A DNA stretch of 48,645 nt from Thermoproteota archaeon. Its GTDB lineage: Archaea; Thermoproteota; Thermoprotei_A; Sulfolobales; Ignisphaeraceae. Where the stretch lies: the NCBI GenBank assembly GCA_013154235.1, contig JAADCV010000081.1, forward strand, positions 1 through 48,645. Reading direction: 5' to 3'. The notes under the pieces were generated by a model. The model did no database searches. It worked only from the letters and a program-made list of their open reading frames with translations, and was not told the DNA's origin. The translations under genes were made by a program, and so were the position numbers. Every line of letters begins with the position of its first letter. The stretch's first letter is position 1. Positions 33,823 through 46,119 of this stretch are shown here, one piece after another.

Positions 33823-35055
33823 TTGCGCAGCGCACGAAGACTTGTAGCAATATCGCTAGCTGGCATAGCTGTGGGCGTTGTAACGGGGCTAGCCTACGCT
33901 GCCCTAGCTGAAGCCATGAGAATCGCTAGGGATATCCATTCCTTAGCGTACTCTCTAGCTCCGTGGCTCACGGTACCTCTAGCGGTGCTAGGAGGGGTAG
34001 TAACGGGATTCATACTCAAGTACGTGTCGCCAGATGTAGCGGGTCCAGGTATAGATGCCGCGATAAACGCTATCGTGCGCCGATGGGGCTTGATGAAGCT
34101 TAGGACTACGGTAGCTAAGTTCGTTGCAACAGTTGCTACTGTTGGTCTAGGGGCTAGCGGTGGTCTCGTGGGTCCGATGGCTCAGATAGGCACTGGTATA
34201 GGCTCAAGGATCTCAACGCTACTGAAAATGGATAGGTTGTCTAGAAAGCGGGTAGCTCTAGTAGGTTTAGGAGCTGGAATAGCATCAGTGCTTCAAGCGC
34301 CGGTCTCGGGCGCGCTAGCATGCATGGAGATACTGTATAGAGGGCCAGGTTTAGAGGCTGGCGTGCTAGTGCCGTCGCTCTTCGCAACATTCGCGAGCGC
34401 GTTAACGACGTACCTACTACTCGGAGGATGGTACTCACACCTAGAGATACATGTGCCTAGAGCTCTCTTACTCAACCCTAGATTCTTAGCGTGCTCGCTG
34501 ATAGTTGGAGTAGCTGGTGGGCTGCTATCAATGGCGTTCTCAAGAACATACTTTAGCTTGGAGAACCTGTTTCAGAGAATGCGGATACCTATAGTCGTTA
34601 AGCCAGCTATAGGGTGCTGTATTGCTGCTACAATAGCTCTCGCGTTTCCAAGCGTCTACGGAACTGGGTGGGATCTAGTATGGATATCTATATCCTCTGC
34701 AAGCGCCTCACTACTAGCAACGCTGCTCGTTGCAAAGATGTTCGCAACTATCTTCACTCTGAGCTCCGGAGGGAGCGGAGGGATATTCGCGCCTACAATA
34801 GCGATAGGAGCGCTCCTAGGGTCTATCGTAGACAACGTGTTTGGGCTCCACAGACCGGATCTAATGGCGCTTATAGGCATAGCATCAATGCTATCAGGCC
34901 TGTGCAGGGTTCCCTTAGCTGCTGTAGTTCTGGTTGCTGAGGTTGCGGGAGGGGTCTACACCCTTCCTCCGGCAATAATAGCATCTCTAGTATCCTACCT
35001 AGTTGCAGGTCCAAAGGCGACCATCTATAAGAGCCAGCTAGAGGCGTCGCCATGA
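33823..35055 (+). CDS. ClC-family chloride channel/transporter homologue
   Basis: TTG start; GLGASGGLVGPMAQIG; SGGSGGIFAPTIAIGALLG. Confidence 0.9.
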   Translation: MRSARRLVAISLAGIAVGVVTGLAYAALAEAMRIARDIHSLAYSLAPWLTVPLAVLGGVVTGFILKYVSPDVAGPGIDAAINAIVRRWGLMKLRTTVAKFVATVATVGLGASGGLVGPMAQIGTGIGSRISTLLKMDRLSRKRVALVGLGAGIASVLQAPVSGALACMEILYRGPGLEAGVLVPSLFATFASALTTYLLLGGWYSHLEIHVPRALLLNPRFLACSLIVGVAGGLLSMAFSRTYFSLENLFQRMRIPIVVKPAIGCCIAATIALAFPSVYGTGWDLVWISISSASASLLATLLVAKMFATIFTLSSGGSGGIFAPTIAIGALLGSIVDNVFGLHRPDLMALIGIASMLSGLCRVPLAAVVLVAEVAGGVYTLPPAIIASLVSYLVAGPKATIYKSQLEASP

Positions 35056-40017: not shown

Positions 40018-41856
40018 ATGAGGTTCCGCAGCTCCTTCCGTAAAGCACAGGGGGAGTACGTTGCTGCACTTGTAATGCTCTCACTACTAGTATCGATGGT
40101 AGCGCTGCTAGCGGAATGGCAAGCAGCGATTCACCAGAGCGCTGAGCAAGCAATAGAGGATATAGAGAAGAGCAAGGAGATGCTAGAGGTCTTCAGGAGC
40201 TCTAGCTCGATAAGGGTAGTGAACTCGTGGGGCAAACCAAGCACTATTATCGCTATAGTATTCAAATTCGCGGACTCAGAATCCCTGAGCGCTGCACTTG
40301 CTGAGCTTAGCAAAGCAGTGCGTCTAGGTAAGCTTGTTATCGATAAGCACGACTTGATAGCGGTTCTACAGCTGCCTAGAGAGAGCTGGATTACAGTTGA
40401 TCCAGCATCAGCTACAGATATCAACGCCTCGATAGATCCCGCTATTCCTATCCTAGTTAACCATTCTAGAACTGTCTGCGTGTACACACTCTACAGCAAC
40501 ATATTCTGCAACTCAACACCAGCATCCCTAGGTCTAATACCTAACGCTACCCAACCAGCGCTACTATTCAACGACACTACCCATATACTGAACAGGCTTG
40601 CAGTAATTAACTACAGTAAGGTCGTGCCAGTATCCTTCACGTATCCACCATTCTCCGCTGCAATACCGCCTAGCATCCCGATAATAATAGTGAAGGATCT
40701 TAAGAGCCTTCCGAGGTTCCTTGTAGAGACCGTTGTCAAGCTTAAGGTGCTTATAAACTTCTCATGTCATAGCGTAGTATGTCCCTGGACCCCTAGGAAC
40801 TTCACAATAATTTTGGGTAACGGTGCTAAGGTTAAGCCTAGCTACGTATGTCTCTTCAATCCCTACCCAGTGTATCTGATAGGGTGCAGCAATGGCGACG
40901 AACCTGTAAGAACATCGCTTAGGTTTATGTTAGCGGTTGTAGACGGGGTGCCTGTATACATCGATACGCTCAGCGGACCATATCCATACACTGTGTCCTT
41001 CATTACCTTTGCCGGGATCTCTAACGGTACCTACACTATAGCTGAAGCCTATGTTACGTCTGTAGCATTCAAGGGCTCTAACGTTGTGGCTGTAATGCAT
41101 ACAAGCTATAGTTGGCGCTTATGCAAGTTCACTATCTGGAGCTCTTGGGGCCTGTGCTCAAACTCTTTTGTCTATACCTTGGCTGGTAGCGGGCTGTATG
41201 GGGTTGCTAGGTACGGACTCTTCGACTTACCTCTACTGGTGCTAAAGAAGACCTCGCCGCAGCTATATCCTCCAAAAGCACCTACTCCCCCGCTGTCAAA
41301 GGTTGCTGTCACTATATATCAGTACTACCCTGGGTACGCGCCAAATATAGTGTCACATAATCTCAGATACATGAGTGGGGGTTACGCAGACGTAGTAAGT
41401 TTGAGCTCTGTAATGGCAGTATTTATCCAGCCTGTTGCTAGATTGCGTGTGCTAGTACCAACATATGTTGTTGCTAGCAACGGTACAAAGATTAGATTCC
41501 GGATTCCTTTGCTGACGCTAAGCCTCACTAATGTCTATAGTGTCGCTGGATACGTGATTAGCGCCGTAAAAACCAACTACACCGTTAGAGGTGTGGAGGT
41601 AGTTTCTGGAAAGGTGTATAGAGGGTACGAGATAACTACGGGCAGGTTCAATCTTGGTCTACAGCCTCCCGTATCGTCTAGGTATGTATATACGCTATTC
41701 GTTGTAGTTAGCAGCAGCAGGCTTGACGAATTTAGCGTAGTGCTACTGCACTGGCCCGCAACTATAGTTCCAGCACCTAGCTTCCAACTACCAGCTTCTC
41801 ACCGCCACACAGTCGGCGCAGTAGCTCCACTGCTGAAAGTGATGCCAAGTAGCTAG
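40018..41856 (+). CDS. Large pilin-like/adhesin-like exported protein (612 aa)
   Basis: RKAQGEYVAALVMLSLLVSMVALLAEW N-terminus; many N-x-S/T sequons; follows pilin genes. Confidence 0.7.
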   Translation: MRFRSSFRKAQGEYVAALVMLSLLVSMVALLAEWQAAIHQSAEQAIEDIEKSKEMLEVFRSSSSIRVVNSWGKPSTIIAIVFKFADSESLSAALAELSKAVRLGKLVIDKHDLIAVLQLPRESWITVDPASATDINASIDPAIPILVNHSRTVCVYTLYSNIFCNSTPASLGLIPNATQPALLFNDTTHILNRLAVINYSKVVPVSFTYPPFSAAIPPSIPIIIVKDLKSLPRFLVETVVKLKVLINFSCHSVVCPWTPRNFTIILGNGAKVKPSYVCLFNPYPVYLIGCSNGDEPVRTSLRFMLAVVDGVPVYIDTLSGPYPYTVSFITFAGISNGTYTIAEAYVTSVAFKGSNVVAVMHTSYSWRLCKFTIWSSWGLCSNSFVYTLAGSGLYGVARYGLFDLPLLVLKKTSPQLYPPKAPTPPLSKVAVTIYQYYPGYAPNIVSHNLRYMSGGYADVVSLSSVMAVFIQPVARLRVLVPTYVVASNGTKIRFRIPLLTLSLTNVYSVAGYVISAVKTNYTVRGVEVVSGKVYRGYEITTGRFNLGLQPPVSSRYVYTLFVVVSSSRLDEFSVVLLHWPATIVPAPSFQLPASHRHTVGAVAPLLKVMPSS

Positions 41857-42589
41857 TCCTAGGATTCGATGGGCTAGGAACATTCTCTACTTTTATAGTG
41901 ATTCTCGAAGCCTTCGATTCCACAACTATTTCATGTATATTCCTATCGATAGAGGGGTCTGCCACGATCTCTACCTCAGCATCCTTGCCGGAGGCTAAGC
42001 TCAGGGCTGCCGACACGTTGATATTGAATGGAAGTAGCTTAACGGCTTCGCTCGCTCTACCTCTAAATACCACAGTAGGCTGAGTAACTTTCGAGGGATC
42101 GAACTTTATCGCCTCGCAAGGCTTTATGCTCCTAGGAGGCTTGCGAGTCCTTAGAAGAACCCTATCTATTCCAGCTCTCCTCAGCGCCCTTATAGCATCG
42201 AGACCGGCAATCGCTCCGCTAGGCACTAGGATCATAGCGCTTGATCTCTGTGCAGCTTCAAGGAGTTTCTCCAGAAGGTCTCTATCCATGAGCGCTCCAA
42301 CACTTAGAACAACTAGCCATGCTCCGCTCGAGAGAATCTTCTCTCCATACTGCCTCACAGCCTCTTGGCTAGCTGCCTCCACAACTATATCAGGCTTCAG
42401 CTCGAGTAGTTCATCGATGGAAGACGCTATCCGTGGCTTAGCTCTCCTCATCTTCGACCTAAGGTCCTCGCACTTCTCCCTCACGATGTCGAACATCGCC
42501 ACCAGCTCCGCAGCTACGTAGCCCTCATCGATGGCTTTAGCGATTTCGGAGCCTATGGCTCCGCATCCTATTAGCGCAATCCTCCTCAT
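41777..42589 (-). CDS. nadX: L-aspartate dehydrogenase
   Basis: RRIALIGCGAIGSEIAKAI; VPSGAIAGLDAIRAL; NPRTSYLASLSAVELLRRL. Confidence 0.9.
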   Translation of the reverse strand: MRRIALIGCGAIGSEIAKAIDEGYVAAELVAMFDIVREKCEDLRSKMRRAKPRIASSIDELLELKPDIVVEAASQEAVRQYGEKILSSGAWLVVLSVGALMDRDLLEKLLEAAQRSSAMILVPSGAIAGLDAIRALRRAGIDRVLLRTRKPPRSIKPCEAIKFDPSKVTQPTVVFRGRASEAVKLLPFNINVSAALSLASGKDAEVEIVADPSIDRNIHEIVVESKASRITIKVENVPSPSNPRTSYLASLSAVELLRRLCGGEKLVVGS

Positions 42590-42602: not shown

Positions 42603-43466
42603 CTAAAGCAAGCGCTCTATCTCTAGGCTCATATCAACTCTTTCGGGCTTCATAGTAATAACGCTTGTGCTTATGACATCTGGATCCAGCTTGGCGTAAG
42701 CAGCAACATTATCCTCATCTATTCCTCCGCTAACCTCAACAACAACTCTATCTCTAAGCCCTTCGCGCTTCAAGAGCTCTAGCGCTTCAGCAACCTTACT
42801 TGGACTCATGTTGTCCAGCATAACTATGTCTGCGCCAGCACGTGCAGCTCTAACAGCATCGCTAGGCTCTGTCACCTCAACCTCTACCTTGTGAGCGAAG
42901 CTAGCTCTGGACTTAGCTAGCCGGACTGCCTTCTCGACATCTCCCACAATAGCTATATGGTTATCCTTTATCAATATAGCATCACTGAGAGAAAACCTAT
43001 GTGTATCACCGCCTCCCAGCGCTACCGCCTTCTTGACGAGGGCTCTTAGCCCTGGCACAACCTTGCGCGTAGCCGCTACCCTAACCCTCGGGTTAACGCT
43101 TCTAACTATATCCACTATCTTCCGAGTCTTCGTAGCTATACCCGCTAGCAGCATCAGTATGTTCAAGATCGTTCGCTCGAAGAGTAGAATACTCCTAGCA
43201 TCGCCACCAAGCTTCATCACAGCAGTTCCTCGACGCACCTCCTCTCCATCACCAACTAGGGGTGCTGCCTCCAGTCCTAGGATCTTCAGTGCTCTAGCGA
43301 CATCGCTAACACACGCAACTACACCGCTGCTCTTCGCAATAATGACAGCCTCCACAGATCTGCCCTCCGGCACGAGAAGCTCAGTTGTTATATCTCCGAA
43401 CGGTGCGTCTTCGCGAACCCATTCCAAAATCTTAGAAGCTAAGATATGTGGATCCAAAAACCCCAC
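42603..43466 (-). CDS. nadC: Nicotinate-nucleotide diphosphorylase (quinolinate phosphoribosyltransferase)
   Basis: EDAPFGDITTELL; AATRKVVPGLRALVKKAVALGGGDTHRFSLSDAILIKDNH. Confidence 0.95.
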   Translation of the reverse strand: MGFLDPHILASKILEWVREDAPFGDITTELLVPEGRSVEAVIIAKSSGVVACVSDVARALKILGLEAAPLVGDGEEVRRGTAVMKLGGDARSILLFERTILNILMLLAGIATKTRKIVDIVRSVNPRVRVAATRKVVPGLRALVKKAVALGGGDTHRFSLSDAILIKDNHIAIVGDVEKAVRLAKSRASFAHKVEVEVTEPSDAVRAARAGADIVMLDNMSPSKVAEALELLKREGLRDRVVVEVSGGIDEDNVAAYAKLDPDVISTSVITMKPERVDMSLEIERLL

Positions 43467-43471
43467 CTCAT

Positions 43472-44398
43472 CTACTTCGAGATTAAGTCTAGACTCCGCT
43501 CCAGAACCTCGCGAACCTTCCTAGCTATTGAGCTCTCTACGGCAACTCTATGCTTTAGGAGCTCTAGGGATCTAGCTACGTGGATAAGCGTTATCTTCTT
43601 CATATCGATACACACCGCTAGCGGATTAGCTGGCTCAACATCCCTCTCGGGATACATCTTCTTCGCGCGATACGCGAGACCCTCTTCTGTAGCTAAGAGT
43701 ACCTTCCCGTTGAACTTGGGGATAGCCTTGAGCATCTGGCTGGTGCTTCCAACATACTTAGCTATCGATCTTACATCCCTAGGGGTTTCAGGGTGCGCTA
43801 TCAACGTAGCTTTCGGGTACTTACTCAGCGCCCTCTCTACATAGTATCGATTTAGGAGATGCTCGTGGACTGGGCAGTGCCCGTAGGGTGGTGCTACTAT
43901 GATTCTTTTCCCAGTAGCTTGCGCAACATGATCTGCGAGGTTCTTATCAGGTCCGAACACTATCTCATCGTCCTCGAGCATCGATATTAGCTTCGCTGCT
44001 GAGGAGCTTGTAACTATATAATCAGCTTCAGCCTTCGCCGATGCTAGCGAGTTAACGTATAGAACTACTGGCGCAGTAGGTACTGCGGATCTAAACTCGC
44101 GAACTGCTTGAGGCGAAAGAAACTCAGCTAGCGGGCACCCAGCGCATGGGTTCGGATGAAGCACTATCTTGTCAGGATTTAGCACTGCTGCCATCTCAGC
44201 CATGAACGAAACTCCGCAGAATACTATCACGTCTGCACTAACCTCCATAGCCTTGCGCGCGAGCTCTAGGCTATCTCCAACAAAGTCAGCAACATCTTGC
44301 ACTTCAGGTAGCTGGTAGTTGTGCGCCAAAATGATAGCGTTTCTACGCTTCTTCAACTCGCTAATCCTTTTAATGAGGCTATCCACAGCCGATCCCAA
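43472..44398 (-). CDS. nadA: Quinolinate synthase
   Basis: ILAHNYQLPEVQDVADFVGDSLELARKA; FCGVSFMAEMAAVLNPDK; PNPCAGCPLA. Confidence 0.95.
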   Translation of the reverse strand: MGSAVDSLIKRISELKKRRNAIILAHNYQLPEVQDVADFVGDSLELARKAMEVSADVIVFCGVSFMAEMAAVLNPDKIVLHPNPCAGCPLAEFLSPQAVREFRSAVPTAPVVLYVNSLASAKAEADYIVTSSSAAKLISMLEDDEIVFGPDKNLADHVAQATGKRIIVAPPYGHCPVHEHLLNRYYVERALSKYPKATLIAHPETPRDVRSIAKYVGSTSQMLKAIPKFNGKVLLATEEGLAYRAKKMYPERDVEPANPLAVCIDMKKITLIHVARSLELLKHRVAVESSIARKVREVLERSLDLISK

Positions 44399-44417
44399 GG
44401 TTCTTCGCCACTATACT

Positions 44418-44450
44418 GCTCCCTCAAGCTCGATATAAGCGAGGGGGAGC
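44418..44450. promoter_or_regulatory. Shared divergent promoter/operator candidate: TATA element inside nested inverted repeats
   Basis: gctccctcaagCTCGatataagCGAGggggagc: CTCG-N7-CGAG around gatataag, flanked by GCTCC-CTC/GAGGGGGAGC arms. Confidence 0.45.
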
Positions 44451-44461
44451 GAAGCAAAAAC

Positions 44462-45514
44462 GTGTATGCACGCATTACTGGCTTTGTATCCAGGGGCAGA
44501 GATTGCATACACGACTGCGTGCTGGAGAGGTGGGCTAGCACGCGCGCGTGCATAATCGCTCCCGAAAGGTTAATGCGTTTAGCCGAAGAGCTATCCTCTA
44601 GATGCGAGACCCTAGGAATAGATGTTACTCGGGGAGTCGGCTCTTGCGATATCGCTATAGCTATAGGTACGGATAGAGACATTCTACACCTTCTGCAATC
44701 ACTAGAGAACCCGCCTCCAACACTAACTATAGCTCCTCCCGGCTATACCGGGTACCTAACTCACGCCTACTGGGAAGCGATAGATGATGTACTCGCTAGG
44801 GTAGTTAAGGGTAAGTACAGCGTACGCGAGATCGCTAGGGTCCACGCAGTTATCGATGGGAAGCGCGAGGTAAGCGCACTTAATGAGATAGCGGTGTTCC
44901 CACAGAGGAGCGCTATAACTATGGAGTACACGCTTAAGATAGATGGCGAACCTCTGTGGAGGGACGTTGCTGACGGAGTGATAGTATCTACACCCCTCGG
45001 ATCGACAGCCTACGCTCTATCCGCAGGAGGACCGATAATCCTATTGAACGCTGAAGTACTTGAAGTCGTACCGGTCAATAGCACTGAGCCGAGTCGAAGA
45101 CCAATAGTGGTTCCTCGAACAAGCACCATATCTATAGAGGACATAGCTTCTAGGTACCCTATCGAGGCTATAGCCGACGGGGTAACGAGAATGAGAGTAG
45201 ATGAACGAATAGAGTTCCGCTCCGGCGTGCCCGTGCGATTCATAGAGGTTGAGGGAGGCGCTACATACATAGCTAAGAGAAAGCTAGGTACTTACAAGGA
45301 GCTCCAGAGCCTACCTCCGAGCGCGAAGTTCGTGTATAAGATGCTAGAGCTGGAAGGACCTATGAGCGTTAGAGATCTAGCTGCAAAAACACTTCTGCCG
45401 GAGCGCACAGTTAGGTACGCGCTAAATATTCTCTTGGATAAGGGACTCGTAGAGAAAGTTGTCGACCCACGCGATCCAAGGAGGCACATATACAGAATCA
45501 AGGGCGTACCGTGA
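44462..45514 (+). CDS. NAD kinase-like domain fused to C-terminal winged-helix domain (candidate NAD-responsive regulator)
   Basis: ALNEIAVF and DGVIVSTPLGSTAYALSAGGP are NADK motifs; C-terminal LPPSAKFVYKMLELEGPMSVRDLAAKTLLPERTVRYALNILLDKGLVEKVVDPRDPRRHIYRI is a wHTH; TATA 22-30 nt upstream of GTG 44462. Confidence 0.82.
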   Translation: MYARITGFVSRGRDCIHDCVLERWASTRACIIAPERLMRLAEELSSRCETLGIDVTRGVGSCDIAIAIGTDRDILHLLQSLENPPPTLTIAPPGYTGYLTHAYWEAIDDVLARVVKGKYSVREIARVHAVIDGKREVSALNEIAVFPQRSAITMEYTLKIDGEPLWRDVADGVIVSTPLGSTAYALSAGGPIILLNAEVLEVVPVNSTEPSRRPIVVPRTSTISIEDIASRYPIEAIADGVTRMRVDERIEFRSGVPVRFIEVEGGATYIAKRKLGTYKELQSLPPSAKFVYKMLELEGPMSVRDLAAKTLLPERTVRYALNILLDKGLVEKVVDPRDPRRHIYRIKGVP

Positions 45515-45561
45515 TGAAGATGGGAGCGGCTGAACCTATGATGATCCCAAGGCTTCGCTGA
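45511..45561 (+). ncRNA. Candidate C/D box guide sRNA overlapping the upstream stop codon
   Basis: C GTGATGA 45511-45517; 12-nt guide agatgggagcgg; D' CTGA 45530-45533; spacer acct; C' ATGATGA 45538-45544; 13-nt guide tcccaaggcttcg; D CTGA 45558-45561. Confidence 0.8.
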
Positions 45562-45604
45562 CGCAACTTTCACTGAACTACTCTACGCAGCTTTCCGTTT
45601 ACAA

Positions 45605-45628
45605 CCGAAATTTAATCATTAGTTTCGG
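45605..45628. promoter_or_regulatory. Inverted repeat CCGAAA-N12-TTTCGG in an AT-rich intergenic region; ccgaaatttaat resembles BRE/TATA
   Basis: ccgaaa tttaatcattag tttcgg upstream of the 45682 ORF. Confidence 0.4.
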
Positions 45629-45681
45629 AACTAGTCGCTCATTACCGTTTCTTTCGAAGGGGTACTCGGTGTTAGTGCAAG

Positions 45682-46119
45682 GTGTATAAGCAATCAGAAG
45701 ATTTCTTTCGGTGGGGAGAGAGCGTGGGTAGGTACCAAGAGGTAGTGTACTCCATAGCCGTATTAGCAGCTAGCTACCTTCTATTCAAGGTGCTCAACTG
45801 CTCATCCCCTGCGCTAGTCGCAGCCCTAACACCCATAGTTGCGTTAGCCCATGAAGCTGTGCATCTCCTAACGATAAGGTTGCTAGGCTTAAGACATAGA
45901 GTCGCTGTAAGGGGGATGAAGGTGGGTTTTGTCATAGACTTCGATAACCCTAAGAAATACATTGTTTGCGCACTGAGCCCGCAAGTAATTACTGCTATGC
46001 TTGCTATTCTATCGATACATACTCCGGAGCTAGCAGTACTTGCATTAATCCATGTCGCTATGTCTGTACATGATATCGCTAAGAGCCTTAAGTACGCACG
46101 GATGCTTTCTAATCTATGA
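45682..46119 (+). CDS. DUF3267-like membrane protein, putative integral membrane zinc metalloprotease
   Basis: Multi-TM with HEAVH (HExxH) in a TM segment and a C-terminal SVHDI motif. Confidence 0.62.
   Translation: MYKQSEDFFRWGESVGRYQEVVYSIAVLAASYLLFKVLNCSSPALVAALTPIVALAHEAVHLLTIRLLGLRHRVAVRGMKVGFVIDFDNPKKYIVCALSPQVITAMLAILSIHTPELAVLALIHVAMSVHDIAKSLKYARMLSNL

Follow-up and report, generated by a model that had tools for sequence, protein, structure and literature searches.

An NAD kinase-like protein with a winged helix as a probable regulator of NAD supply in Thermoproteota

Proteins in which an NAD kinase (NADK)-like domain is joined to a C-terminal winged helix-turn-helix (wHTH) domain occur throughout the Thermoproteota, and judging from their sequences and genomic context, they very probably act as transcriptional regulators of NAD supply. 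Our best reading of the family is a transcription factor without kinase activity that would sense NAD(P) and control the supply of NAD precursors. An earlier note on the DNA studied here (the window, a stretch of 48,645 nucleotides) had proposed an NAD(P)-sensing regulator of the genes nadA, nadC and AspDH. This proposal is supported by a canonical NADK encoded elsewhere in the genome, by recurrent linkage of the fusion to nad genes and by a shared operator at remote nadA promoters.

An NADK-like domain joined to a winged helix

The regulator gene lies at 44519-45514 (+), within an open reading frame spanning 44321-45514 (+). It encodes 331 amino acids from GTG 44519, a start based on the N-termini of homologues. 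The gene had previously been read from GTG 44462 (+), which gives a 350-aa product. The N-terminus of the closest relative aligns near residue 27 of that reading, making the 350-aa form about 25 aa longer, so GTG 44519 fits the homologues better and is the likely start of translation. With this start, the intergenic region to nadA is 44399-44518 and not 44399-44461.

The NADK-like, putatively sensory domain has approximate boundaries of 44543 and 45247 (+). It matches the Pfam model NAD_kinase_C (PF20143) at 78.6 bits (cut-off 23.7), and the N-terminal model NAD_kinase (PF01513) at 19.8 bits, under its cut-off of 25.5. The wHTH domain at 45311-45499 (+) had been recognized from the sequence before and was recovered by several models above their Pfam cut-offs (MarR_2 with 27.4 bits against a cut-off of 27, HTH_24 and HTH_5). 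A search of PDB sequences matched the body of the regulator to NADKs and its tail to separate HTH proteins, with no NADK-wHTH fusion among the matches. An AlphaFold model built on 11 sequences showed an NADK fold followed by a wHTH with its helices and two-stranded wing (pLDDT 77.9). The top Foldseek matches of this model were NADKs, with TM-scores reaching about 0.78 when normalized to target length.

The donor motif is lost and the acceptor pocket kept

In NADK structures, GGDGT forms the phosphate-donor side, and NE, DG, GS.AY and similar motifs contribute residues of the acceptor pocket. The motifs quoted for this protein in the earlier note are all present, with IGTDRDIL in place of GGDGT, APPGYTGYLT, ALNE and DGVIVSTPLGSTAYALSAGGP. 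The sequence and the alignment of homologues identify GTDRD (44666-44680, +) as a degenerate donor-binding and catalytic motif in which the Asp is retained. The NAD-binding NE motif (ALNE; 44876-44887, +) and the NAD-binding region DGVIVSTPLGSTAYALSAGGP (44972-45034, +) are both retained.

None of the 48 aligned fusion homologues has an intact GGDGT. Within this motif, the first Gly and the Asp never vary; the second Gly is found in 12/48, the third in 3/48 and the Thr in 4/48, and the fourth position is Arg or Lys in 41 of the 48. The N of NE, DG, GS.AY, the paired GG and the Asp that corresponds to D222 of LmNADK1 are each retained in 47-48 of 48 fusions. As the donor motif that defines NAD kinases was examined and is absent, we do not class the regulator as one. 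The catalytic Asp is invariant (48/48), so residual kinase activity is possible.

Distribution and separate NADKs

A family profile built from the first 11 fusions was searched against 214 genomes at the level of the order. Fusions were found in 11 genomes at scores of at least 456 bits, and ordinary NADKs scored at most 138 bits. In a phylum sample of 398 Thermoproteota genomes, 152 contained a profile match at E <= 1e-42; most of the listed matches cover the profile including the wHTH and a few are fragments or lower-scoring members of family f22, so that 152 is not an exact count of complete fusions. Many of the sampled genomes are metagenome-assembled genomes (MAGs). The fusion family is therefore Thermoproteota-wide and no local oddity. 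It extends to families f15 and f51, which we take to be ammonia oxidisers of ocean and soil (Nitrosopumilaceae and Nitrososphaeraceae), partly on gene content. We further assume that f22 comprises relatives of Pyrobaculum and that genus g24 is probably Metallosphaera. A tree was built from 48 fusions, 25 NADKs, most of them encoded in the fusion genomes, and four bacterial NADKs. All fusions formed a single clade in it (support 100/100), apart from the same-genome and bacterial NADKs.

The earlier note had suggested looking for a second canonical NADK, and the source genome (79% complete) does encode one on contig C87, with 283 aa and an intact GGDGT. A third PF01513 match in this genome (G000, contig C57, L001:1498-2631) is a more distant NADK/AcoX-like protein of 377 aa with GGDGT. 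Searches with PF01513 or PF20143 found a separate NADK besides the fusion in 42 of 43 fusion genomes. With PF01513, an NADK-sized match besides the fusion and any C57-type protein was present in 38/43. Four f22 genomes have no PF01513 match; in each, PF20143 finds two proteins, the fusion and a shorter one. The single fusion genome with no detected second NADK is G116, which is 56% complete. The second copies read all have GGDG with T, S or A as the next residue (24/24, or 25/25 with that of the window genome). As nearly all carrier genomes have a separate NADK, their supply of NADP would be independent of the fusion.

The fusion adjoins nad genes or transporters

The genes divergent from the regulator are its predicted targets: nadA, encoding quinolinate synthase (43472-44398, -; PF02445, 324 bits; NF006878, 351.5 bits), nadC, encoding quinolinate phosphoribosyltransferase (42603-43466, -; TIGR00078, 301.7 bits), and an aspartate dehydrogenase gene of the nadX type (41777-42589, -; TIGR03855, 285.7 bits). 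The divergent arrangement described earlier is thus confirmed, with the opposite-strand genes identified by NCBIfam equivalog models.

A check of linkage in homologues, also suggested earlier, showed that fusions repeatedly adjoin nad genes or transporters. The fusion is next to nadA in 15 sampled loci from seven families. It is divergent from nadA in 13 of these (the window, G116, G186, G058, G397, G389, G504, G374, G419, G510, G226, G354 and G344) and lies directly upstream on the same strand in two (G264 and G222).

Elsewhere the fusion faces a transporter, and most such genomes lack NadA, which was searched for in all of them but G379. In five g24 genomes the divergent neighbour of the fusion is an APC permease gene, and NadA is absent in 5/5. 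The divergent gene encodes an aromatic-acid-type MFS transporter in G453, G433, G236 and G379, and an ABC substrate-binding protein in G353. NadA was not found in G453 (85% complete), G433 (82% complete) or G353, and G236 yielded only a 31-residue match. In G023 and G060 the fusion is divergent from an SSF symporter, and nadA is present elsewhere in both genomes. Seven NadA-less genomes (G235, G480, G459, G394, G384, G298 and G250) have no divergent transporter and the fusion has other neighbours, which in G298 include a same-strand ABC gene. In families f48, f60 and f21 and in part of f50, the fusion is unlinked to nad genes and lacks a strong operator site.

Two further neighbourhoods were observed. 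In the presumed ammonia oxidisers (L105-L107, L110-L113, L126, L127 and L130), the fusion comes after a conserved gene for a pfkB-like kinase, beside pyrG. In one g24 genome (L036:8617-10210), a creatininase-family gene and an isochorismatase-family gene lie beside the fusion, and the latter could encode a nicotinamidase.

A palindrome at fusion promoters

De novo palindrome searching by expectation maximization (EM) upstream of the fusions converged on GGCAATAATTGCC, i.e. GGCAA-N3-TTGCC. The input comprised 37 upstream regions (-130 to +60), with the presumed ammonia oxidisers excluded. The log-likelihood ratio was 77.5 for a 13-bp and 85.3 for a 15-bp palindrome, against maxima of 25.6 and 31.3 in 12 shuffled sets each. 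Twenty regions had a partner site above 4 bits, and the spacing was 30-33 bp in 16 of them (under a uniform-spacing null, P about 7e-15). Several lineages have one site across the probable start codon and its partner about 41 bp upstream. We infer that the fusion protein itself binds this palindrome.

In G116, G023, G060, G226 and G453, the fusion promoter holds the only genome-wide match to the strict 13-bp pattern. Other genomes have matches elsewhere, two of them at the start of an MFS transporter gene in g24 species. Counts of the strict pattern per genome are similar to control counts, so only the location of the matches is informative. The MFS genes at L180 and L181, with a strict match at or near the start in two NadA-less g24 species, are candidate NAD-precursor transporters.

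Autoregulation, part of the original proposal, holds up in part: the motif is at the promoter of the fusion in many lineages, but most regions directly upstream of the fusion in presumed ammonia oxidisers lack a strong site. Inspection by eye, unscored, revealed no GGCAA-N3-TTGCC upstream of their pfkB-like gene. Relative to a putative TATA box, the operator is downstream in some lineages and lies 50 bp upstream in the presumed ammonia oxidisers. This difference in order means that the sign of regulation may differ among lineages. We also considered covariation between the recognition helix and the operator, as the residue after RTVR seemed to be Tyr or His where the operator is present and Leu where it is missing. 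This idea was dropped because presumed ammonia oxidisers with Leu have the same palindrome at nadA.

In the window, the candidate operator GGGCAGAGATTGCAT (44494-44508) scores 10.9 bits and is the second-best site in the 48.6 kb. A 13.5-bit site at 34970 is inside a channel-like coding frame and was treated as a chance match. At the position aligned with 44494-44508, the congener G116 has CTGCAATAATTGCCG, which scores 19.2 bits. A GCAAAA..GCAC block is found near the candidate operator. The block GCAAAAACGTGTATGCAC (44454-44471), partly conserved in G116, is a possible second operator element. It contains the first arm of a perfect 10-bp inverted repeat, 44461-44470/44504-44513, which overlaps the candidate operator elements. 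A TATA-box-like sequence, GATATAAG (44432-44439), is conserved in G116. The window operator is moderate and its partner weak, with a spacing of 24 bp compared with 30-33 bp elsewhere. No match to a riboswitch, for NAD or otherwise, was found in 43300-45700. At the far end of the gene, 45508-45564 (+) resembles a C/D-box sRNA (GTGATGA, CTGA, TGATGA, CTGA) and overlaps the regulator stop codon; the Rfam model snoPyro_CD matches there at 22.6 bits, short of the gathering score, 45.

The operator recurs at remote nadA promoters

No remote nadA promoter was used in learning the operator motif, and these promoters therefore served as a held-out set. Sites of at least 10.5 bits were found at nadA promoters in 11 of 14 fusion genomes with a remote nadA, compared with 1 of 20 nadA-bearing genomes in which no fusion was detected (Fisher P 1.3e-5; this and the other tests treat genomes as independent and ignore relatedness). 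The count includes G257, where the nadA start comes from a corrected search, and leaves out G473, where the nadA start was not located.

Presumed ammonia oxidisers are among the genomes with an operator at a remote nadA. In 8/10 of their nadA promoters, a TATA-like element starts 50-51 bp from the centre of the site; such a match in a two-position slot is expected in 0.23%. One of these eight fixed-spacing promoters (G506) has a site of only 7.1 bits.

The exception among genomes without a fusion is G196, a MAG that is 70% complete. Its nadA promoter bears a near-perfect site of 19.2 bits, and no fusion was detected on the contig or in the genome. The site is part of a nadA-nadC cluster (L221, around 2776). 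From this operator, we predict that the missing part of G196 holds a fusion gene.

Discussion

We propose that the fusion is a one-component transcription factor. Its sensor would be the NADK domain, which has kept the acceptor (NAD) pocket and lost the phosphate-donor motif. The ligand is probably NAD or NADP, which would most simply act as a co-repressor that signals sufficiency. The pair of C-terminal wHTH domains would occupy the palindromic operators, GGCAA-N3-TTGCC. Two operator copies about 32 bp apart, or three helical turns, would suit a tetramer; tetramerisation is suggested by NADKs in general and by this two-site spacing. Predicted targets are nadA-nadC-aspDH in lineages that have the pathway, a transporter in many that lack it, and often the regulator's own gene. 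We favour repression as the mode of action in this organism, and in lineages like it the target genes would be repressed when NAD(P) is plentiful. Activation is possible in the presumed ammonia oxidisers, as the operator is upstream of TATA there. More tentatively, the family may form one Thermoproteota-wide regulator, ammonia oxidisers included, in which the Arg or Lys adjacent to the former catalytic Asp recognizes the 2'-phosphate of NADP(H), a tetramer bridges two operators three helical turns apart, and the adjacent target shifts from biosynthesis to uptake as nadA is lost.

Several other readings were weighed. The invariant catalytic Asp (48/48) and the retained acceptor pocket are compatible with a divergent but active NADK with a DNA-binding tail, a bifunctional protein that makes NADP and regulates, and the archaeal RbkR, reported to be such an enzyme-regulator (cited in PMC8305020), offers a precedent. 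However, an intact donor motif is found in 0/48 fusions, 41/48 have Arg or Lys at its fourth position, and the separate NADK of nearly all genomes would supply NADP without the fusion, which makes this improbable. The regulator could instead control NAD genes in response to quinolinate, nicotinate mononucleotide, nicotinate or ADP-ribose. There are precedents for such signals among NAD regulators (niacin for NiaR, ADP-ribose for NrtR), and the fusion faces transporters in NadA-less genomes. Yet the residues it retains are those with which NADKs bind the NAD(P) dinucleotide, and we consider such a signal unlikely.

It is highly improbable that the palindrome is the operator of a different transcription factor, with the fusion playing another role beside it. 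Binding by the fusion is a prediction, and G196 has a site and no detected fusion; against this, the site tracks the presence of the fusion across genomes and occurs at the fusion's own promoter even when nadA is elsewhere (G023, G060), and the exception G196 is only 70% complete. We retain the kinase-dead, NAD(P)-sensing regulator as the preferred reading.

If so, the family would supply a regulator of archaeal NAD synthesis with a defined operator and predicted targets. The operator would provide a handle on the NAD economy of ammonia-oxidising archaea, and it points to candidate NAD-precursor transporters in lineages without de novo synthesis. Among open-access papers, we found no regulator of archaeal NAD synthesis and, in titles and abstracts, no description of an NADK-HTH regulator.

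Among known systems, NAD kinase (NadK; PF01513/PF20143, EC 2.7.1.23) shares with the fusion its fold and its acceptor motifs NE, DG, GSTAY and SAGGP. The fusion differs from NadK in that it has lost GGDGT (48/48), gained a wHTH, forms a separate clade and coexists with a canonical NADK. The bacterial NrtR also combines an enzyme-derived sensor with a wHTH that controls NAD genes. The sensor of NrtR is a Nudix domain, whereas that of the fusion has an NAD-kinase fold and is archaeal; a Pfam scan up to E = 1 found no Nudix match in the regulator. NiaR, a niacin repressor with a 3H domain, and NadR resemble the fusion in regulating NAD synthesis or precursor uptake via biosynthesis or transporter genes. 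Both are bacterial and the fusion is archaeal, and the regulator has no Pfam match to the 3H domain of NiaR or to the NMN-adenylyltransferase and ribosylnicotinamide/P-loop kinase domains of NadR. RbkR, an archaeal riboflavin kinase with an HTH, has a fold that differs from the NADK-like fold of the fusion. Like the fusion, it joins a cofactor kinase to a DNA-binding domain that controls synthesis of its own cofactor, as described in PMC8305020, and it is reported as both a gene regulator and a riboflavin kinase enzyme. The HTH of RbkR is N-terminal and its cofactor is a different one. Enzyme-derived regulators of cofactor synthesis are thus already known (NrtR, RbkR), and we found none derived from NAD kinase among open-access papers. 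To these the fusion would add a clear case in which a housekeeping enzyme was duplicated, stripped of its catalytic motif and now probably senses what had been its substrate or product.
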